The notes under the pieces: generated by a model | Told to the model about the DNA's origin: nothing | Database searches by the model: none | The model's input: the letters and a program-made list of their open reading frames with translations, nothing else | From: Solirubrobacterales bacterium | GTDB lineage: Bacteria > Actinomycetota > Thermoleophilia > Solirubrobacterales > JACPNS01 | Reading direction: 5' to 3' | NCBI GenBank assembly: GCA_016185345.1 | Contig: JACPNS010000015.1 | Coordinates: 1-64,000 of the forward strand | Length of the DNA: 64,000 nucleotides | Shown here: piece after piece, positions 2,389 to 48,898 of the stretch | Layout: every line of letters begins with the position of its first letter | How positions within the stretch are numbered: position 1 is the first letter of the stretch | Position numbers and translations under genes: made by a program

Positions 2389-3174
2389 TCAGAGGAGAAT
2401 CAGCGCCGTGGAGCAGGCGATGAGTTCCGTGACGACGACTGTTGCGCCGATCGTGTCACCAGTGCGACCGCCGATCGCACCGCGCGCAATTGCTGATGAG
2501 AGCGCGGCCGCGAGGCTACTTGCCAGCGCACCGGCAATCCCAATCGTCGGTCCAAGTGCCGCAATAGCGATGGCGAGCGCTATGAGCCCCGCGATCAGCG
2601 ACTGCCAGGCCGTGACCTCGAAGGATGCGCCCAGGCCATCGGGACGCGCAGGCGGGGTAGTGGTCGCATGCACACATGCGGCCCATCTTGCCAACGCGGC
2701 GGCGGCGATGAGCACCGCCAGACCTTCCAACTTGCTCAGCTGACTCAGAATCGAGACGAGCATGAACGCCCAGCCAATCAACGCGAGGCAGCCGAATACA
2801 CCAATTGACGAATCGCGCATGACTTCCATCCGGCGATCACGATCATTTCGTATTCCCAATCCGTCTGCGCAGTCGGCCAAGCCATCTTGATGCAGGGCTC
2901 CGGTGATTACTACGAGCGTGATGACGGCTGTGACGGATGCAGTTGCTGAACCAAGCGTGGTGTATGCAGCCGCCCAAACCGCGCCTGCGATTGACCCGAC
3001 CAGCGCTCCGACCAGCGGAAACCACACTGAAGCTGCGCCGAGTCTTCCCTCTCGGATTCCACTCCACCTGAGCGGAATGATCGTTAGGAAGGTCAGGGCC
3101 AGCGCGGCGTTGGCCGCCGCCTGACCAATTCGCGCCGCACCAGTTCGCTGCTCACTGATTGCGCGACACTCCAG
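2389..3174 (-). CDS. cobS: Adenosylcobinamide-GDP ribazoletransferase (cobalamin synthase)
   Basis: Joins adenosylcobinamide-GDP to alpha-ribazole (or its phosphate), the last assembly step of the nucleotide loop, in the membrane. Diagnostic stretches are ALTFLTIIPLRW at the N-terminus, FPLVGALVGSIAG, and the metal-binding HQDGLADCADGLG followed by RRMEVMRDSSIGVFG; six or so hydrophobic helices follow. The gene overlaps the end of bluB-cobT. No ATG, GTG or TTG lies in frame between the family's usual N-terminus and that overlap: the nearest candidates are CTG at 3174 (used here) or ATT at 3129. A GTG exists one frame off at about 3141. The open frame continues to an ATG at 3387, but that part reads as a shadow of bluB-cobT. 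Confidence 0.9.
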   Translation of the reverse strand: MECRAISEQRTGAARIGQAAANAALALTFLTIIPLRWSGIREGRLGAASVWFPLVGALVGSIAGAVWAAAYTTLGSATASVTAVITLVVITGALHQDGLADCADGLGIRNDRDRRMEVMRDSSIGVFGCLALIGWAFMLVSILSQLSKLEGLAVLIAAAALARWAACVHATTTPPARPDGLGASFEVTAWQSLIAGLIALAIAIAALGPTIGIAGALASSLAAALSSAIARGAIGGRTGDTIGATVVVTELIACSTALILL

Positions 3175-4924
3175 ATTCTTCGAACGTTGCCATGTTCGCG
3201 TGCAGAGCGCCGGACAGCTCAATGATCGGCAGGGCGAGCAGGCCTCCGGACCCCTCACCGAGGCGCAGTCGCAGATCCAGAATCGGCTCCAGCCCGAGCT
3301 CGGTGAGCAGCAGCTCGTGCCCTGGTTCAGCCGAGCGATGACTCGCGAACAGGTGCTCCCCGACCGCTGGATCAATGCGGGTGGCAATCAGCGCGGCGAC
3401 GGTCACCGCATAACCGTCGATCACGATCGGCAGCGCCCGTTTGGTCGCCTCCATCATTGCGCCGACCATGGCTACAAACTCAAACCCTCCGACCGCGATC
3501 AAGGCCTCGGACGGCTCCAGTGGCAGCGCGCGCCCCTTGAGCGCGTTGGCTACGAGCTCGACCTTTCGCCTGAACCCTGCCGCGTCTACGCCCGTGCCGC
3601 GGCCGACCGTTCGGTTCGGTTCAAGCGCGAGAATCGCCGAAGCGAGGGCAGCCGTCGTTGTCGTGTTGCCAATGCCGATTTCGCCGAGAACCAAGCAGTC
3701 GATGCTGCGCTCGTCGAGCTCTGCGCAGCTGTCGCGGCCGATTTTCATGGCGCGATCAAGCTGCTTGGCTGTGAGTGCGTCGCCGACACTGAAGTCCGCG
3801 GTTCCCGGCGCGATCTTTTCGTTTCGAACGTTCGGCGGCGTCGGACCAGCGAGGCCGACATCGGCGATGACGAGTTCGTGTTCGCCGCGCTCGGCAAGCA
3901 CGCCGCACGCCGTCTCGCCACGGGCTGCGGCGGCAGCCACCTGGCTGGAAACCGCTGCGTCGAAAAGGCTTGTCCCATGCCGCGCATGCCCGTGGTCGGA
4001 CGCGAAAATCAGCACGCCCGCGCGGAGAGTTTGGCGTGGCGGTCGTCCGGTTACGGCGGCCCATCTGGTGATCACAGTTTCAAGTGCACCGAGGCTCCCT
4101 GCCGGCTTCACAAGCTGGTCTAGTCGGTCGCGGGCGCCGACCGCAGCATCGAGGTGCATCGTCGGCTGATCCCGATTTTGCTCCACCGCACTTTCGTCGT
4201 TCTCTCGCCATCGTTCCTGCATTACGACTTCGTCGAGCGGCATTCGCTGCGACCAGCCGGCGGTCTCGAGACCCGGACGCAGCGGTCGCTCGTCGGGCCA
4301 ACCGACGCAGAGGTACGCAATCGGTTCGACTCGCGCGGGTAGATCGAACAGCTCTCGCAAATCGTCGCGCTGGTAAAAGCTCACCCAGCCGACACCGAGA
4401 CCTTCGGCTCGCGCCGCAAGCCAGAGGTTTTCGATTGCGCAGGCGGTGCTGTAAATATCGGTTTCGCTGATTGTCCCGCGACCAAGAATCTCTTCGTCGG
4501 CGTCGCCGTGATCGCAGCAAATACATATTCCAAGTGGCGCTTCAACTATTCCCTCGACTTTCTGGTCCAAGAAATGGCGCGCGCGCTCATCGAATTTGTG
4601 GGCTTGCCGGCTGCGCTCGCGCTGAGCGAGAGCGCGCACGGATATGCGCGATTTCAGATCACGAATCACGATCATCCGCCAGGGCTGCATCAGCCCGACC
4701 GAAGGAGCTTGGTGTGCGGCGGTCAAGACGCGCCCGAGGGTGTCGTCGTCAACCTTGTCGGGACGAAAGCGGCGGATGTCACGCCGCTCGGAGATCACTC
4801 GATACACCGCTGCGAGTTCAGCCTCCGCATAGCGCCAACCTTGCGGATCGGCCGCGCGATCGGTCGCTCGGGAATCGTCGAAGTCGGCCGGCGTGGGCGG
4901 GCGCATGAAGCGTGGAGGGGGCAT
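3152..4924 (-). CDS. bluB-cobT: BluB-CobT fusion: DMB synthase plus nicotinate-nucleotide-DMB phosphoribosyltransferase
   Basis: 590 aa joining two enzymes of lower-ligand activation. Residues about 25-235 are BluB, the flavin- and O2-dependent enzyme that fragments FMN to 5,6-dimethylbenzimidazole; RRDIRRFRPD and APSVGLMQPW are its flavin-binding signatures. Residues about 250-590 are CobT, which makes alpha-ribazole phosphate from DMB and nicotinate mononucleotide: KPAGSLGALE, FASDHGHARHG, GEIGIGNTTT and the catalytic Glu in GEGSGG are all present. The fusion should channel DMB between the two sites. Start ATG 4924 (ATG 4906 also possible). It is transcribed divergently from the riboswitch-led cobC operon and overlaps cobS downstream. 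Confidence 0.93.
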   Translation of the reverse strand: MPPPRFMRPPTPADFDDSRATDRAADPQGWRYAEAELAAVYRVISERRDIRRFRPDKVDDDTLGRVLTAAHQAPSVGLMQPWRMIVIRDLKSRISVRALAQRERSRQAHKFDERARHFLDQKVEGIVEAPLGICICCDHGDADEEILGRGTISETDIYSTACAIENLWLAARAEGLGVGWVSFYQRDDLRELFDLPARVEPIAYLCVGWPDERPLRPGLETAGWSQRMPLDEVVMQERWRENDESAVEQNRDQPTMHLDAAVGARDRLDQLVKPAGSLGALETVITRWAAVTGRPPRQTLRAGVLIFASDHGHARHGTSLFDAAVSSQVAAAAARGETACGVLAERGEHELVIADVGLAGPTPPNVRNEKIAPGTADFSVGDALTAKQLDRAMKIGRDSCAELDERSIDCLVLGEIGIGNTTTTAALASAILALEPNRTVGRGTGVDAAGFRRKVELVANALKGRALPLEPSEALIAVGGFEFVAMVGAMMEATKRALPIVIDGYAVTVAALIATRIDPAVGEHLFASHRSAEPGHELLLTELGLEPILDLRLRLGEGSGGLLALPIIELSGALHANMATFEESGVSRNQ

Positions 4925-4971: not shown

Positions 4972-5110
4972 GCGTTAGGATCAGCGTCTACAAAACGCGT
5001 GGCGGTGCGAGGAAGCCAGTGAGATTCTGGAACGGTCGCGCCACTGTGACTGGTTGAAGTGACTGGCGAAAGTCAGGAAATTCAGCCGGCAGTCAGAGAC
5101 TCGTCCGCCG
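4972..5110 (+). promoter_or_regulatory. Cobalamin riboswitch 1 (upstream of the cobC-cobM operon)
   Basis: The conserved B12-aptamer boxes are readable in order: GGTGCGAGGAAGCCAGTGAG, the core GCCACTG at 5040-5046 (the B12 box region), and CTGGCGAAAGTCAGGAA. A plausible TAGGAT minus-10 lies at 4976-4981. Adenosylcobalamin binding would be expected to repress the downstream biosynthetic operon. The Shine-Dalgarno it could mask (AGGAGG, 5145-5150) belongs to a short leader ORF rather than to cobC itself. Confidence 0.9.
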
Positions 5111-25464: not shown

Positions 25465-25660
25465 TGTCCCGTCAATCGGTCGTAGCGAAGGCTCAAGTCT
25501 CCTGGCTCTCGAAGCTTTGCCTGTCTCGCACCTTCCCACCCGTCAGGGCGGCGGTTGCCGCGATTTGGCCCTTCGATCACAGTGGCACGACCGCATCGGA
25601 TTCTCACCGATTTCCTCGCACCAACGCTCTTATGAGCGGCGCAGCGTATCAACTGGTCGC
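25465..25660 (-). promoter_or_regulatory. Cobalamin riboswitch 3 (upstream of cbtB-cbtA-cobG-cobH-cobIJ)
   Basis: On the minus strand the boxes read GGTGCGAGGAAATCGGTGAG (25603-25622), the core GCCACTG followed by TGATCG (about 25573-25588) and GAGAGCCAGGAGA (25498-25510). This is a canonical adenosylcobalamin aptamer about 40-60 nt upstream of the cbtB Shine-Dalgarno. It should shut down cobalt uptake and early corrin synthesis when B12 is plentiful. The rest of the 25443-25844 gap holds the divergent promoter for the multicopper oxidase. Confidence 0.92.
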
Positions 25661-25844
25661 TGCAGCCGCGAAGACCCAACGGCCTCTCTCGGCCCAAACG
25701 TGACCCAGCCAGTTGACGGTGATCCATCGGGCACGTACAGCACGTATCACCACTAATGTTTGCGATTGGTTGGATCGCGAACCATCAATTTTGTTGCTGG
25801 AATTCAACAGTCAACGCCATCACTGCCGTTCTTGAGGAGGCACC

Positions 25845-42280: not shown

Positions 42281-43612
42281 TCAGGCGCCGCCAATGCCCA
42301 AGCGGTCGGCCTCGCGCGCGAGTTCTTCGTCGTGCGGGTTGTCAAATGCGTTGAGCGATTCCTGTTCGAGCAGCCCAAGCTCGAGTTCGACGCGCACACG
42401 CGTCTCGGGATCGACGATCTCCTTGAGGTGATTGAGCATTGCTCGCATCCGTCGGTGCACCTGCACGGCGTGTTCGCCGTAGATCCGAATCTCGGTCGTT
42501 CCCAGCTCGAAGTACTCGATCCAGGTCGGCGCATGGATCAACGCGCGCGGCGTGCCGGTCGAGTCCACGACATAAGTTGGCCCGGGGTGGCGCTCGTAGA
42601 GGCGCACGAGAATCGACTCGATTCGGTCGATCGTCTGGACGGATGTGGTCGGGTCATTGATCGCGGGCGAGAGCGCGCGAATCGCAATGTCGACGAGTAT
42701 GCGCAGGGCGAATGCCGGGTCCTGCCTGACAGTGCGCTGGCGTGAAAGCACGAACACTTTTGCGACCTGCTTGCGCGTGGGTTCGTGCTTTCCGTCGTAG
42801 ATGCGCACTGCGCCGAGTCGCGAGGACACATACTCGCCGATCTGCGGCAGAACTTCGACGAATCCTCCGGTCACGTCGGCGAGCTTGATCAGCGCTCCAC
42901 GATCCATAGCTGCGATCACGCCCGGCGCACCAAGCAGTTCGATCTCGGACACCGAGCACCCGGTCGGGAGCGTTGGGGTCGGCATCGCGCGGCCGGCCTT
43001 CACTGAAGGGTGGACGTCGTCGATCGCGCGCCAAGCCTGCATTGAGAGGGCGCGAAGGATGCCGCCGATCTGAATCTTTTCAAACGCACGCTGAACGAGC
43101 GCGGCAAACCAGGCGAGCGTTGCAACCGCGAGGAGCAGACCGAAAAAAACAGTGAACAGTGGCGCCGCGGAACTTTCGTCGCGCTGTCCGACCGAAGCCA
43201 GGGCTCCGAGCGAATACGCCGCCGTGGCTGTAGAGAGCACGAGCGTCCCCATGATGATCGGGTCGCTGCGTAGTTGATTGGCAAGGCGTGGCGAGTAGGA
43301 AGACGTCTGGATCTGCGCGGCAATGAACATCGCCGAGAAAACGATTCCGGTGAAGGTGATCATGCTGCCAGCGAGCGCCGTGAAAATCGACTGAACTGTC
43401 GATGTGAGGAGTGGCGACTGTCCGCCGATCAGCTCGTCGATCTGCGGCAGCGCAAACGAAAAGAGCAGCGCGACCATGTTCAGAGTCAGAACGACGATCC
43501 AGAGCTGACTGATCAACCAGAGTCGGGCGCGAAAAAAGCGCGGCGCAGTTGTGACCGCACGGAGATCGCGGTCCGATCCGGGACTTCCGATCACTGGGCG
43601 TTCGCGGGGCAC
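42281..43612 (-). CDS. DUF2254 membrane protein
   Basis: 443 aa. Four helices in the N-terminal half (about 38-175) and a soluble C-terminal half with the DUF2254 signature IRALSPAINDPTTSVQTIDRI (about residues 318-338) and RRMRAMLNHLKEI. Function unknown; the family is widespread in bacteria. The gene starts only about 40 nt upstream of riboswitch 2, which is transcribed in the opposite direction. Gap 42161-42280 shows nothing. Confidence 0.85.
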   Translation of the reverse strand: MPRERPVIGSPGSDRDLRAVTTAPRFFRARLWLISQLWIVVLTLNMVALLFSFALPQIDELIGGQSPLLTSTVQSIFTALAGSMITFTGIVFSAMFIAAQIQTSSYSPRLANQLRSDPIIMGTLVLSTATAAYSLGALASVGQRDESSAAPLFTVFFGLLLAVATLAWFAALVQRAFEKIQIGGILRALSMQAWRAIDDVHPSVKAGRAMPTPTLPTGCSVSEIELLGAPGVIAAMDRGALIKLADVTGGFVEVLPQIGEYVSSRLGAVRIYDGKHEPTRKQVAKVFVLSRQRTVRQDPAFALRILVDIAIRALSPAINDPTTSVQTIDRIESILVRLYERHPGPTYVVDSTGTPRALIHAPTWIEYFELGTTEIRIYGEHAVQVHRRMRAMLNHLKEIVDPETRVRVELELGLLEQESLNAFDNPHDEELAREADRLGIGGA

Positions 43613-43654
43613 CAGCCGATCCTACGGACGCTACCGGCGACGCCTATACTCGCC

Positions 43655-43835
43655 GCATTCGGTCGTGACGAGGGAAGTTCGGTGTGAAGCCGACGCGGAC
43701 CCGCCACTGTGATTGGGTGTGTTTGTCGCACGGGCGCTGAAGTTTTTTCATCCTCAGCCCCCAAGCCACTGGCAGATTTCTGCTGGGAAGGCGCGGCGAA
43801 AAGACCTGTCAGCCAGGAAACCTTTCTCGGCCGTG
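43655..43835 (+). promoter_or_regulatory. Cobalamin riboswitch 2 (upstream of the ECF uptake operon)
   Basis: Boxes in order: GAGGGAAGTTCGGTGTGAAGC, the core GCCACTG at 43703-43709 followed by TGATTG, then GGAAGGCGCGGCGAAAAGAC and GTCAGCCAGGAAACC (43809-43823). A TATACT minus-10 lies at 43646-43651, just before the aptamer. The first gene starts 40 nt after the aptamer, so B12 likely controls translation or early termination of the importer. It ties the downstream ABC system to cobalamin or its precursors. Confidence 0.92.
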
Positions 43836-43875
43836 ATCGCAAACATATCTATCCCTCGTGGAAAGGGGAACGACC

Positions 43876-44886
43876 ATGCAAAAGGCACTCACGCCTTTTC
43901 GAACACGTGTTGCGCTTCTCGCGCTCGCTGCAGTTATGACCTTCGCGGGCTTCGGCGCCGTGAATGCAAATGCCATCACCGTGAACTTGCGCGTTGAAGG
44001 CGCGACGAAGACCTTGTTCAGCGGCTCAGTAGCTACCGGCGGCCGCTCTGTTCCTGGCAGCACTGACCGACCGGAGTGTCGAGCAAACACCACCCCGGCG
44101 AGCTTCGCAAGCCCCAATACGTTCACGGCGATCGCCGACGCGGTCGGCGAATCGAACATCGCCAGCAGCGGGACCTACTACGGCTGGGGCACGATGCTCT
44201 GCGCCGTCAACGGAGAATTTCCGGCAGACACAATTGGAGGCTGGTTCGTGCGGATCAACCAACAGGATTCAACTGCGCCGAACGGTTACGTCACCGCGGC
44301 GGACCCGCTCACGGAGGGTTCGAGCGTCGTCGCATTCCTGAGTCCGGCGTACGGGGCATTCGACTCGAGCCTTGAGCTCCGTCTTCCAACGACTGCAAAA
44401 CCGGGCGTGCCGGTTGGCGGTTTCGTGGACTCATTCGACACCGCTACTGACGTCAAGTCCTCCGGCAGCGGCGCCGCCGTCACGGGCGGAGGCGCGAACG
44501 CGACGGCAGGGGCGGACGGTGGATTCTCCATCACATTTCCCTCCGAGGGCAAATTCCTCGTGAACGCCACAGCATCGGGCGCCGTTCGCGGATCGCAATG
44601 GGTTTCGGTCGCGGCCGACGCTCCGGCCTTGCCGGTCCTGCAGGCGACTCAGAAGGAGATCAACCAGAAGCGCCGCAGCGTGGCCCGCGCCAACTGCCGG
44701 AAAGCGAACCCTTCCAAGAAGGGTGACGAGTACGTCGAGTGCATCCGCACGGCGAACAACCTCGGCCGCACCGTGTCGAAGAAGGACAAGCGCATCGCCG
44801 CTCGTCTGCGCTGCCGCATCAGCTACCCACGACCGAGCTCATCGCGCGTGAAGTGCATGCGCGACGCGAACGCGATTGGGAAGTAG
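43876..44886 (+). CDS. Exported transcobalamin-like (DUF4430-type) protein with basic Cys-repeat tail
   Basis: 336 aa from ATG 43876 (GAAAGGGG upstream). Sec signal peptide with cleavage near NANA (residue 33). Residues about 35-160 resemble a DUF4430/transcobalamin C-terminal-like domain: VNLRVEGATKTLFSG, YYGWGTMLCAVNG, GGWFVRINQQDS and a GSSVVAFLS strand. A middle beta domain (165-255) looks Ig/carboxypeptidase-regulatory-like. The last 75 residues are Arg/Lys-rich and contain two copies of a C-x(n)-C..AN.(L/I)G(R/K) unit with no sortase signal. First gene after the cobalamin riboswitch, so a corrinoid-capturing surface protein is likely. Confidence 0.72.
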   Translation: MQKALTPFRTRVALLALAAVMTFAGFGAVNANAITVNLRVEGATKTLFSGSVATGGRSVPGSTDRPECRANTTPASFASPNTFTAIADAVGESNIASSGTYYGWGTMLCAVNGEFPADTIGGWFVRINQQDSTAPNGYVTAADPLTEGSSVVAFLSPAYGAFDSSLELRLPTTAKPGVPVGGFVDSFDTATDVKSSGSGAAVTGGGANATAGADGGFSITFPSEGKFLVNATASGAVRGSQWVSVAADAPALPVLQATQKEINQKRRSVARANCRKANPSKKGDEYVECIRTANNLGRTVSKKDKRIAARLRCRISYPRPSSSRVKCMRDANAIGK

Positions 44887-44893
44887 CAGGCCG

Positions 44894-45769
44894 GTGATCC
44901 GCCCGGTCTCCGCCTTGCTGATCGCAGCCTGCGCCGTCATCGGCGCGGGCTGCGGCAGCTCGGGCCCGACCGGACCGACGACCAGCGTGACTGTCACGCG
45001 CGACTTCGGCGCGTCAGAGATCGCAAGAACCCAGACGGTCGATTCGACGAACGGCCTGACCGCGCTCCGTCAGCTTGAAGCGGTCCACAAGGTGACGACA
45101 GCGTACGGCGGCCGCTACGTGAAGTCGATCAACGCCACTGCGGAGGACGGCGACAGCTCGTGGCTCTTCTATGTGGACGGCGTGGAGTCCGACCAGGGCG
45201 CGACATCGGTCCGCCTGAAACCCGGGCAGGTTGTGCAGTGGGACTTCCACCCCTGGCAGACGATTCGAACCGGAGGCGCGATCGTCGGCGCATATCCGCT
45301 GCCGTTAAAAAAGCGCGGCGTCCGCCTGATCTGTGCACCGACGAAATCCCCCGAATGCTCGGCTGCGCGCAGGGCGCTGACTGCCTCCGGGGTCGTGGTC
45401 AGTTCACAGGGGTCCGATCGCGTGATCGTCGGCACCTGGAACAACATCGAGGACTTTGACGGCGTTCGCGACCTGACCAGGTCGGGCGAGAGCAACGGTG
45501 CGTACGCACAGTTTTCCGCAGACGGCCGAACGCTGACGCCGTTGTCTGCCGACGGCTCCGAAGGCAACCAGATCAAGAAGCAGGGTGGCCTGCTCTCCGC
45601 GTTCTCGGATGCGCGAGGCGTGGTCTGGTTGGCAACGGGAACGGATCCAGCGGGCGTGAGCGCCGCTGTGCAGTTGCTTGAGGCCGGTGGACCCCAGCTG
45701 CAGAATCGGTTCGCGATGGCAGTGGGGCCTGCGGGGCCGATCGTACTCCCCGAGCGTGCCGGTCAGTGA
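44894..45769 (+). CDS. Lipoprotein with transcobalamin-like (DUF4430) domain, probable corrinoid-binding subunit
   Basis: 291 aa from GTG 44894. Lipoprotein signal LLIAACAVIGAGC with the acylated Cys near residue 20. Residues about 35-120 match DUF4430: a leading beta strand, LTALRQLEAVHKVTTAYGG, YVKSIN, SSWLFYVDGVES and LKPGQVVQWDFHPW. This domain is related to the C-terminal B12-binding domain of animal transcobalamin and intrinsic factor. Residues 125-291 form a second domain I do not recognise (RLICAPTKSPECSAARRAL and a beta-rich remainder). The stop overlaps ecfT as GTGA. Likely delivers corrinoid to the ECF importer. Confidence 0.8.
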   Translation: MIRPVSALLIAACAVIGAGCGSSGPTGPTTSVTVTRDFGASEIARTQTVDSTNGLTALRQLEAVHKVTTAYGGRYVKSINATAEDGDSSWLFYVDGVESDQGATSVRLKPGQVVQWDFHPWQTIRTGGAIVGAYPLPLKKRGVRLICAPTKSPECSAARRALTASGVVVSSQGSDRVIVGTWNNIEDFDGVRDLTRSGESNGAYAQFSADGRTLTPLSADGSEGNQIKKQGGLLSAFSDARGVVWLATGTDPAGVSAAVQLLEAGGPQLQNRFAMAVGPAGPIVLPERAGQ

Positions 45770-46665
45770 GCCGCGCCGCCGACACTGCGGCCCGCGTGCT
45801 GAGTTTCGGCTATCGCGATCGTGGCGGGCCGCTGCAGCAGGCGCGCGCGACGACCGTGATCGGTTGGTGCGTCGCCCTGGGACTCGTGCTCGCGCTGTTC
45901 ATGAACCCCGTGGTGCTTGCTGCCGTGCTGTTTGCGGTGATCGTCATGGCCTGGCGCTGCCGCGTGATCCCGGAGATGCTGGTCGCGCTCGCGATTTCAC
46001 TGCCGGTGACGATTTTGATCGCACTTGTCAATCCGATCGCCTCGCAGCAGGGTGTGACGGTGTTGGTTGCAGGGATCGAGCTGCCGGTGCTCGGGACGTT
46101 TGACATCACTCAGGAAGCTGTTGTTTACGGGCTGGTGCTGGGCTTGCGTTCGGCGGCGATCTTTGCGGTCTGCGCTTTGTACGTCTGCACCGTCAGCCCC
46201 GACGAACTGCTCCGAGTCCTGCGCCGCTACTCGGTGCGATCGGCGATCACGGCCTCGCTCGCCGTGCGTTTTGTCCCGACCCTCGCGCGCGACGGAGCGA
46301 ATCTTGCGACCGCTCGGGCATGCCGTCCGGGCGCGTCGCCATCGACGGGAGCAGTAGTGCGCGCAGCTTTTGCCCGCTCGCTTGAGCGTGCCGGCGATTC
46401 TGCGCTCGCGCTTGAGACGCGCGGCTTCGCACTCGCGCGGCCGATGCGCGTCGCCCCGCCGCCCCGGCTTCTGGCCGACCACGTCATCATGGCCTGCTCG
46501 ATCGCCGTGATCGTGCTCGCAATCGTCGGCATCGCCACGGGGCTCGCGGGCTTCACCGCATATCCACTGACGGAGGTAGCGACGGCGCCGAGTGATCTTG
46601 GCGTCGCCGGCGCGATCGCGATCGCCGCCGCGCTGCCGGTGGTGCTCCCAACGAGGCTCACGTGA
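45766..46665 (+). CDS. ecfT: ECF transporter transmembrane subunit EcfT
   Basis: 299 aa CbiQ/EcfT family. Five to six helices, with the coupling-helix signatures near the end: SLAVRFVPTLARDGANLATAR and SLERAGDSALALETRGF, which engage the ATPases. GTG 45766 overlaps the lipoprotein stop; its own stop overlaps the ATPase start. Forms the scaffold between the double ATPase and the S component. Confidence 0.88.
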   Translation: MSRAADTAARVLSFGYRDRGGPLQQARATTVIGWCVALGLVLALFMNPVVLAAVLFAVIVMAWRCRVIPEMLVALAISLPVTILIALVNPIASQQGVTVLVAGIELPVLGTFDITQEAVVYGLVLGLRSAAIFAVCALYVCTVSPDELLRVLRRYSVRSAITASLAVRFVPTLARDGANLATARACRPGASPSTGAVVRAAFARSLERAGDSALALETRGFALARPMRVAPPPRLLADHVIMACSIAVIVLAIVGIATGLAGFTAYPLTEVATAPSDLGVAGAIAIAAALPVVLPTRLT

Positions 46666-48230
46666 TGGGCTCCCTGACGATCGAACGCAGTTCAGTTGCT
46701 GCGCTCCGCTTCGACGAGTTCACTTATGCGTACCCAGGGGCCCTGAAGGCCGCGCTCGAGCTGTCGATCGAGGTTGCGCCCGGCGAGTTTGTGCTCGTAT
46801 GCGGCAACTCGGGAAGCGGCAAGTCGACATTCCTTCGCGCGATCTCGGGCCTCGTGCCGCACCACTTCGGTGGTTCGGCGGCAGGGAGCGCCGCGATCTG
46901 CGGGCTCGACCTGCGCGAGAACTCGTCCGGCGAACTCGCCGCGTTCTGCGGCACGCTGCTGCAGGACCCCGAGACTCAGGTTGTGATGGACAGTGTTCGG
47001 GCGGAGATTGCGTTCCCGCTCGAGAACCTCGGTTGGGAGCAGTCGGCAATCGCGATCGCAGTCGAGGAGACCGCCGCCGCACTCGGGATCGAAGCCCTGC
47101 TCGGCCGCCGAACCGACGAGCTTTCCGGCGGCGAACTGCAACGAGTGGCGCTCGCCGCCGCTCTGGCGCCGCGGCCCGATGTGCTCGTGCTGGACGAGCC
47201 GACGTCGCAGCTCGACCCGGTTGCGGCAGACGAACTGCTCGCGACGCTCGCCCGGCTGAACAACGATCGCGGCACAACGATCATCCTCGCCGACCACCGT
47301 CTCGAGCGAGTACTCGACGTCGCTGATCGCGTAGTGATGTTCGGGCGGGGGAAGGTCGTGATTGACGCCGATCCTCAGGAGTTTCTTGAGTTGGCGGCGC
47401 TTGACCCCGAGCGATCGCACCTGCTTCCGCCGCTGGCCGAGCTGTTTGACCGCGCAGGCCTTGACCCTCTGCCGCTGAATGCAAAGGCCGCGCGGAAGCG
47501 TCTCGGCCCGATCGCCGCACGCATCGCGGCACCCCTCCAGGCTCGGCCCGCAGGACCTGCAGTGCTTGAACTGAAGGGCGTTGGTCACAGCTACGGCCAA
47601 GCAGCACCGGTGATTTCCGGCGTCAACTTCGACCTGCGCCCAGGAGAACGGGCCGTGCTGATGGGTGCGAACGGCTCGGGCAAGTCAACGCTGCTTCGCC
47701 TGGCTCACGGAGTCCAGACCTTGAAGAAGGGGACGATCGAGCGCGGCGGCGAAGTCGCCCTGCTGCTCCAGAACCCGAACGACTATCTGATCCACGAACG
47801 CGTCTCCGAAGAAGCACCCGCCGGAGCGCTCGCCAAGTTCGGCCTCGAGCGCTTCGGCGATCGCGACCCGCGCGATCTCTCCGGAGGCGAGCGTCAACGG
47901 CTCGCGCTCGCGATCGTCATGCAGTCCGACCCTGCGGTCCTGCTGCTTGACGAGCCGACGCGGGGGATGGATCAGTTGAGAAAAATTGAACTGAGCACGC
48001 TCCTGCGAGCGATCGCCGATCGCGGCACGGCGGTCCTTGTCGCCACTCACGACGCGGAGTTCGCAGCGCACTTTGCTCAGCGCGCGCTGCTGCTGGGCAG
48101 CGGCTCACTACTTGCAGATGGGCCTGCATCGGAAGTGCTCGGCGGCGGGTGGCACTTCTCGACTGCGGTCGCAAACCTGATGCCTGGAAGTGGTGCCCTT
48201 ACGCCTGCTCAAGGTGCGGAACACCTTTGA
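46662..48230 (+). CDS. ecfA: Fused EcfA-EcfA' double ATPase
   Basis: 522 aa with two ABC ATPase domains. Domain 1: Walker A GNSGSGKST (from 48), signature LSGGELQRVALA, Walker B VLVLDEPTSQLD and switch His in ADHRLE. Domain 2: Walker A GANGSGKST (from 336), signature LSGGERQRLALA, Walker B VLLLDEPTRGMD and ATHDAEF. Powers corrinoid import with EcfT. All catalytic residues are intact in both halves. Start GTG 46662 or ATG 46665. Confidence 0.95.
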   Translation: MMGSLTIERSSVAALRFDEFTYAYPGALKAALELSIEVAPGEFVLVCGNSGSGKSTFLRAISGLVPHHFGGSAAGSAAICGLDLRENSSGELAAFCGTLLQDPETQVVMDSVRAEIAFPLENLGWEQSAIAIAVEETAAALGIEALLGRRTDELSGGELQRVALAAALAPRPDVLVLDEPTSQLDPVAADELLATLARLNNDRGTTIILADHRLERVLDVADRVVMFGRGKVVIDADPQEFLELAALDPERSHLLPPLAELFDRAGLDPLPLNAKAARKRLGPIAARIAAPLQARPAGPAVLELKGVGHSYGQAAPVISGVNFDLRPGERAVLMGANGSGKSTLLRLAHGVQTLKKGTIERGGEVALLLQNPNDYLIHERVSEEAPAGALAKFGLERFGDRDPRDLSGGERQRLALAIVMQSDPAVLLLDEPTRGMDQLRKIELSTLLRAIADRGTAVLVATHDAEFAAHFAQRALLLGSGSLLADGPASEVLGGGWHFSTAVANLMPGSGALTPAQGAEHL

Positions 48231-48898
48231 CCTCCGCCGCCGCATGGCAACTCTCGAGCGCTGCGCTCCTGTTGACGGTCTTCGCGGTGGGGTTCGCCTG
48301 GTTTGAGCGTTCGCGTCCGCCGGCGCGGATCGTCGCCGCAGTCGCCGCGCTTGTCGCGTTCGCCGTGATTGGCCGAATTCTCTTCGCGCCGTTCCCGAAC
48401 GTCAAGCCGACCACGGACATCGTGATCATCGCCGGCTTCGCGCTTGGCTTTGCTCCCGGTTGGATGGTCGGCGTATTGACGGCGTTGGTCTCGAATTTCT
48501 ACTTTGCCCAGGGACCGTGGACGCCGTGGCAGATGCTCGCCTGGGGCCTCTGCGGCCTGCTCGGAGCGACGTTGGCTCGCGGCGGACTGAAGCCTGGGTC
48601 GAGCCTGACGAGGCGCGTTCCGATGGCGCTCTGGTGTGGATTGGCGGGCATGGGGTACGGCGTGATCGTCAACTTTGGATCTGCCGTGAATCTCGCAAGC
48701 TCGGATATCAGGACGAGCTTCTGGGTGCAGATGGTCGGCTCGTTGCCCTTCGACATCGCGCACTCAATCGCCAATTTTGTCTTCTTCATGATTGCCGGCC
48801 CGTTGCTGATTCGCATGCTTGAGCGGCTGCGTCGTCGCGAGGCGTTGACCTGGCCGGAGCCCGCCAGAGACGCTGCGCAATCAGCAAAACCGGCTTAA
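48227..48898 (+). CDS. ECF transporter substrate-specific (S) component
   Basis: 223 aa from TTG 48227, whose TTGA overlaps the ATPase stop; the frame opens earlier at 48149 but that part shadows ecfA. Six helices. Stretches NVKPTTDIVIIAGFALG and VSNFYFAQGPWTPWQMLAWG belong to the S-component group often linked to DUF4430 genes. In the ECF superfamily the S component determines substrate; the riboswitch and the transcobalamin-like proteins point to cobalamin or cobinamide. Specific family naming (CbrT/CblT-like) would need a search. Confidence 0.85.
   Translation: MTSAAAWQLSSAALLLTVFAVGFAWFERSRPPARIVAAVAALVAFAVIGRILFAPFPNVKPTTDIVIIAGFALGFAPGWMVGVLTALVSNFYFAQGPWTPWQMLAWGLCGLLGATLARGGLKPGSSLTRRVPMALWCGLAGMGYGVIVNFGSAVNLASSDIRTSFWVQMVGSLPFDIAHSIANFVFFMIAGPLLIRMLERLRRREALTWPEPARDAAQSAKPA

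Follow-up and report, generated by a model that had tools for sequence, protein, structure and literature searches.

The window analysed here is a 64,000-nt stretch of DNA from a Solirubrobacterales bacterium (assembly GCA_016185345.1, contig JACPNS010000015.1, positions 1 to 64,000, forward strand). Its forward strand carries an operon that comprises, in this order, a cobalamin riboswitch, the genes of two exported proteins (P1 and P2), and those of EcfT, a fused ATPase EcfAA' and an S component, i.e., of an energy-coupling factor (ECF) transporter (Table 1). P1 and P2 are separated by a gap of 7 bases, and each of the three following junctions is a 4-base overlap, in agreement with the original prediction, made from the sequence alone, of stop-start overlaps at three of the four junctions. 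The predicted gene order and the assignments of EcfT, EcfAA' and the S component were also confirmed, by the CbiQ match, the two ATP-binding cassette (ABC) domains and the match to CbrT, respectively.

The aptamer in the operon leader scores well above the gathering score of RF00174 (31.5 bits), so that a cobalamin riboswitch indeed heads the operon; its start had been placed at 43655, which lies inside the aptamer. Genome-wide, three cobalamin riboswitches were found, all of them in the window: ahead of the cob genes (barely above the threshold), ahead of CbtBA, and ahead of the P1–S operon. A divergent gene encoding 443 aa starts 8 bases from the beginning of the operon riboswitch (43612 and 43620), and therefore each of the two promoters must overlie the transcribed region of the other.

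Table 1. Features of the riboswitch-preceded operon, of the remaining window and of related loci. Positions without a prefix are those of the window.
Feature	Position	Strand	Basis
Cobalamin riboswitch aptamer RF00174, operon leader	43620..43843	+	cmscan 67.3 bits, E 1.9e-14
P1, exported, 336 aa; DUF4430-like domain, Ig-like domain, basic Cys-containing tail	43876..44886	+	hydropathy, family membership, model
P1 DUF4430-like (transcobalamin beta-type) domain	44110..44349	+	family profile alignment, family PF14478 matches
P2, DUF4430 lipoprotein, 291 aa, GTG start, lipobox GAG/C with Cys codon at 44951	44894..45769	+	PF14478, lipobox
P2 DUF4430 domain, transcobalamin beta-domain-like	45053..45250	+	PF14478, Foldseek
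P2 C-terminal alpha/beta domain, family-conserved	45320..45766	+	family alignment
EcfT, transmembrane coupling subunit	45766..46665	+	PF02361 CbiQ E 4.1e-18, hydrophobic segments
Fused EcfAA' ATPase, two ABC domains	46662..48230	+	PF00005 E 1.8e-46, two stretches
CbrT-like S component, 223 aa, TTG start, without fused toroid	48227..48898	+	PDB match 6fnp_A
Divergent 443-aa gene	42281-43612	-	
Second cobalamin riboswitch, ahead of CbtBA	25475-25661	-	
Third cobalamin riboswitch, ahead of cob genes	4986-5104	+	
BluB-type nitroreductase domain fused to CobT (DBI_PRT)	3155-4924	-	
S-toroid fusions in relatives (examples of 23 loci)	L034:8001-10202; L035:8001-9767; L042:7998-9716		
Stand-alone exported toroid, after ileS, outside the operon	G000:C5:199649-200599 (L120:4150-5142)		
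Heme-type locus with BtuF-like protein	L125, G000:C18:33000-41000		

The ligand specificity of the transporter was approached through its S component. Its Pfam matches (ECF_trnsprt, ECF-ribofla_trS) are all sub-threshold, as are those in NCBIfam. A search of PDB with the single sequence returned CbrT as the sole match (E 1.7e-14), and a profile of 26 relatives matched CbrT over nearly the full length (E 5.4e-27), followed by RibU at 6.6e-4. By sequence the S component thus belongs to the CbrT family, and the prediction that it is not a member of another vitamin's family holds. Both binding and transport of cobalamin and cobinamide by CbrT have been demonstrated experimentally (PMC5997447). A CbrT-type ECF transporter requires EcfT and two ABC ATPase domains, which are all encoded in the operon; as read from the translation, the Walker A, LSGGE and Walker B motifs are intact in both domains of EcfAA'. 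No match to CbiM was found for the S component in Pfam or NCBIfam, and CbiM and CbiN are absent from the operon. Five genomes belonging to the genus of the window retain the S component, at 67–85% identity.

Of the two exported proteins, both of which had been predicted to contain DUF4430, P2 is the clear case: it matches PF14478 with 40.1 bits (cut-off 23.8), and with 43.3 bits in the genome search. Its lipobox is kept in nearly all orthologues examined. The AlphaFold2 model of P2 (mean predicted local distance difference test score, pLDDT, 86) was compared with known structures by Foldseek, which matched it to the beta domain of human transcobalamin in the free form (5no0, E 6.4e-5) and in the cyanocobalamin-bound form (5np4, E 1.0e-4), both with probability 1.00 and a TM-score of 0.60–0.61 by target length; whole transcobalamin, intrinsic factor and haptocorrin were likewise matched. 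As modeled, the DUF4430 domain of P2 shares the fold of the transcobalamin beta domain. The likeness surfaced in the fold comparison only, as the sequence search of PDB with P2 yielded no transcobalamin and the NCBIfam search with P2 yielded no match. The top two matches of the model by E-value are chains of BcsB with poor root-mean-square deviation. They probably belong to the C-terminal domain, which has a weak fold likeness to BcsB and to the glucuronidase domains of GH67 and GH115.

P1 remains the weaker of the two as a DUF4430 member. It has a signal peptide without a lipobox, and its own sequence gave no match in Pfam, the curated cut-off of PF14478 not being reached, and sub-threshold matches only in NCBIfam. 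Among the aligned proteins occupying the P1 position, however, 15 of 22 match PF14478 (best E 8.8e-12), and hhalign aligned the DUF4430 core of the P1 and P2 family profiles with probability 95.6 and E 1.1e-8. P1 therefore appears homologous to DUF4430 proteins through its family and not through its own Pfam score. The P1 model is well folded (pLDDT 90), and the top 50 matches in the structure search are all immunoglobulin (Ig)-like and come from the second domain, which is why the assignment of the first domain relies on the family; no transcobalamin was found in a sequence search of PDB with P1. The suggested kinship of both proteins to the B12-binding domain of transcobalamin is accordingly borne out by the model of P2; for P1, the 50 matches bear on the second domain.

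Relatives of the system were collected with the S component as the query, because none were confirmed when P2 was used to search the genome collection for close relatives. The S component has relatives in hundreds of loci, chiefly in Actinomycetota and Bacillota, including 107 of 151 genomes of Solirubrobacterales, and DUF4430 was found in 49 of 50 genomes examined. At 42 of the 47 loci examined, a DUF4430 gene precedes that of the S component, and at 30 of the 47 a cobalamin riboswitch lies upstream on the same strand, both counts being lower bounds since some loci end at contig ends. Such frequencies make a chance association implausible. The order DUF4430-T-AA'-S with a riboswitch is conserved in both Actinomycetota and Bacillota. 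In four loci of Eggerthellaceae, very large surface proteins with two or three tandem DUF4430 domains are encoded beside the same ECF operon. Operons of this type were also observed on contigs labeled Chlamydiae and Nitrososphaerota, which may reflect transfer or misbinning.

In transcobalamin, B12 is sandwiched by two domains, an alpha/alpha toroid on one side and the beta domain on the other, as described by Burroughs et al. (2007; PMC1796856). The likeness to transcobalamin originally proposed applies within the operon to the beta type only, and no protein joining both halves is encoded there. The toroid half was found in relatives, namely in other Solirubrobacterales: at 23 loci outside the window's genus, the CbrT-like S component continues via an additional hydrophobic helix into an alpha/alpha toroid, after which a Pro-rich spacer and one more hydrophobic helix follow in some cases. 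The extra helix would place the toroid outside the cell. No earlier report of such a fusion was found in the literature searched, which leaves out most subscription journals. The toroid profile matched squalene and prenyl cyclases in PDB, by which the fold class was confirmed, and not transcobalamin, and hence the link between the two is one of fold class rather than of sequence. In Bacillota, proteins anchored by S-layer homology (SLH) domains and encoded beside the operon at four loci combine the toroid with DUF4430, i.e., the full transcobalamin architecture, while Desulfoscipio has a separate SLH-toroid gene between AA' and S.

The S component of the window's genus is unfused, and in the tree it falls within the clade of fused S components. 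All five genomes of the genus examined contain a stand-alone exported toroid encoded after ileS. Its matches in other genera are S-fused toroids or copies cut by contig ends, at 25–35% identity, with a single genome as the exception. By sequence, the stand-alone toroid is related to the fused toroids.

The window also contains an aerobic-type cobalamin pathway represented by CobD/CbiB, CobQ, CobN, a chelatase-like protein, CobO, CobB, CobU with an aminotransferase, CobL-like and CobM-like proteins, CobK, a CobIJ-like protein, CobH, a CobG-like protein, CobS, and a BluB-CobT fusion; the methylase assignments are our own. The synthesis pathway predicted beside the operon was thus found, and its completeness, which had been stated outright, is likely. 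Three proteins with a B12-binding domain are encoded in the genome. The only clear BtuF-like protein (Peripla_BP_2) is accompanied by an HtaA-like protein and an ABC ATPase, i.e., it lies in a heme context, and a second Peripla_BP_2 match is weak (E 1.7e-9). Judged by the clear BtuF-like gene, which lies with HtaA, BtuCDF was rejected as a B12 route. A pair of genes for ExbB and DUF2149 proteins lies near this heme-type locus, the second such pair observed.

The placement of the riboswitch, CbrT as the best solved relative, and the heme context of the BtuF-like protein support the operon well as a corrinoid importer. We read it, with a probability of roughly 0.68 for the reading as a whole, as a cobalamin-repressed importer of cobalamin or cobinamide with capture and hand-over by DUF4430 proteins; import of corrinoids as such is very probable, and capture and hand-over of the ligand by P2 and P1 are reasonably likely. 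Also in favor of the reading are the match of the P2 model to the transcobalamin beta domain, the gene order conserved in two phyla, the fused and stand-alone toroids, the SLH-anchored proteins of Bacillota, and the presence of B12-binding-domain proteins in the genome. At low intracellular B12, the riboswitch would permit expression of the operon. P2, tethered to the membrane on its outer side, would join the exported P1 in binding or presenting corrinoids in the manner of the transcobalamin beta domain; the CbrT-like S component would receive them from these proteins, and EcfT with EcfAA' would drive them across the membrane at the expense of ATP. The isolated beta domain of transcobalamin binds cobalamin and cobinamide in crystals (PMC5599065), so that binding by a beta domain is possible in the absence of a toroid. 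In most relatives within the order, the S-fused toroid would close the sandwich with the beta-type lipoprotein, a task that may fall to the separate exported toroid in the window's genus. Somewhat short of even odds, in our estimate, is the proposal that Solirubrobacterales have split the transcobalamin architecture over an ECF importer, with the S component bearing the toroid on its outer face, and with a lipoprotein and a second exported copy as the DUF4430 half, so that B12 would be sandwiched atop the importer and released into it, the toroid having been freed in the window's genus. These would then be the first ECF importers known to us with a built-in substrate trap.

Several observations weigh against this reading. 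The CbrT of Lactobacillus delbrueckii functions in a purified ECF complex to which no binding protein was added (PMC5997447), and the synthesis pathway next to the operon leaves the need for import unobvious. The toroid is absent from the operon, and the stand-alone gene is unlinked to it; no riboswitch was found for this gene, and downstream of it lie genes for an exported protein, an ExbB-like protein and a DUF2149 protein. Given the missing riboswitch and the ExbB/DUF2149 neighbors, a role of the stand-alone toroid in B12 uptake is conjectural. The toroid tree places it with the fused toroids and that of Desulfoscipio, on a long branch that is sister to the fused clade. Either fission with rapid change afterwards or an older lineage of its own would fit this placement.

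The purified complex also speaks for a different arrangement, in which the ECF transporter imports corrinoids alone and P1 and P2 serve envelope attachment, protein contacts or another ligand. DUF4430 is a divergent domain, P1 does not score as a member on its own, and its model is dominated by Ig-like matches; nevertheless, the company of DUF4430 proteins and the CbrT-like S family in 42 of 47 loci, the transcobalamin beta fold of P2, and the partner domain supplied by the S-toroid fusion make this arrangement quite unlikely. Slightly more credible, although still rather unlikely, is that the main substrates are incomplete or foreign corrinoids, such as cobinamide and other cobamides, to be finished or remodeled by CobU, CobS and BluB-CobT. 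The synthesis and lower-ligand genes in the window would suit such a role, and both CbrT and the transcobalamin beta domain accept cobinamide; on the other hand, the sequence does not separate this import from that of B12, and the same operon occurs in Bacillota relatives.

A CbiMNQO-type cobalt importer feeding B12 synthesis would agree with riboswitch control and with CbiQ as the nearest match of EcfT in Pfam and NCBIfam. This reading was rejected as hardly probable at all, since the operon has a CbrT-like S component in place of CbiM or CbiN, and the window already contains the riboswitch-preceded cobalt transporter CbtBA. A remnant operon, decaying after loss of the toroid in the window's genus, might be suspected from the position of the toroid-free S component inside the fused clade, yet the intact frames, the conserved motifs, the strong riboswitch, and the retention of the S component within the genus render decay very improbable.

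The importer thus preferred, with DUF4430 capture and hand-over, has counterparts in several known systems. In comparison with the animal carriers transcobalamin, intrinsic factor and haptocorrin, P2 has the beta-domain fold and relatives have the toroid half, but in the window's genome the halves reside on separate proteins, the toroid outside the operon; none of these carriers was matched by sequence in the PDB searches with P2 or with the toroid profile. Passages of Burroughs et al. (2007; PMC1796856) describe bacterial transcobalamin-like SLBB/DUF4430 proteins with signal peptides, toroid fusions and CbiO/CbiQ neighbors, often with a second paralogue in the same operon, and propose B12 scavenging. 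Two secreted DUF4430-type proteins per operon and the CbiQ-like and CbiO-like genes are shared with the window, whereas the bacteria discussed there usually lack key B12 synthesis enzymes, and these passages make no mention of the S component or of its fusion to a toroid. Capture and hand-over had been put forward for the operon from its sequence; the B12-type importer and its riboswitch control are supported, but scavenging is not new, because transcobalamin-like proteins of CbiO/CbiQ operons were proposed as B12 scavengers in 2007, and by its sequence the operon appears to be a further case of a kind already predicted. These bacterial cousins of the animal carriers would gain a concrete, reconstitutable membrane partner.

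A DUF4430 protein of L. rhamnosus, LGG_02295, is listed as an "additional lipoprotein component of putative cobalamin ECF transporter" (PMC9963975); this is an annotation only, and the paper notes a ribonucleotide reductase gene as the neighbor rather than a full ECF operon. Our further literature search for an extracytoplasmic partner of B12 ECF transporters yielded no additional earlier reports. An extracytoplasmic corrinoid binder that feeds an ATP-driven importer is proven for BtuCDF and proposed for the window operon. The families of the BtuCDF binder and permease are unrelated to those of the operon.

Among ATP-driven uptake systems, the textbook case of one that does without a separate binding protein is the ECF importer. 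The prediction of CbrT reportedly goes back to Rodionov et al. in 2009. With ECF-CbrT of L. delbrueckii (6FNP), predicted in 2009 and characterized in 2018 (PMC5997447), the operon shares the S component, aligned nearly full length, and the functions of EcfT, EcfA and EcfA'. It differs in having its own T and fused AA' in place of a shared module, and in the addition of a riboswitch, two DUF4430 proteins and an extra N-terminal hydrophobic segment. The rule that ECF importers act without a binding protein would be broken by a CbrT-type importer that has DUF4430 partners of its own and whose S component, in relatives, is joined to a transcobalamin-like toroid.

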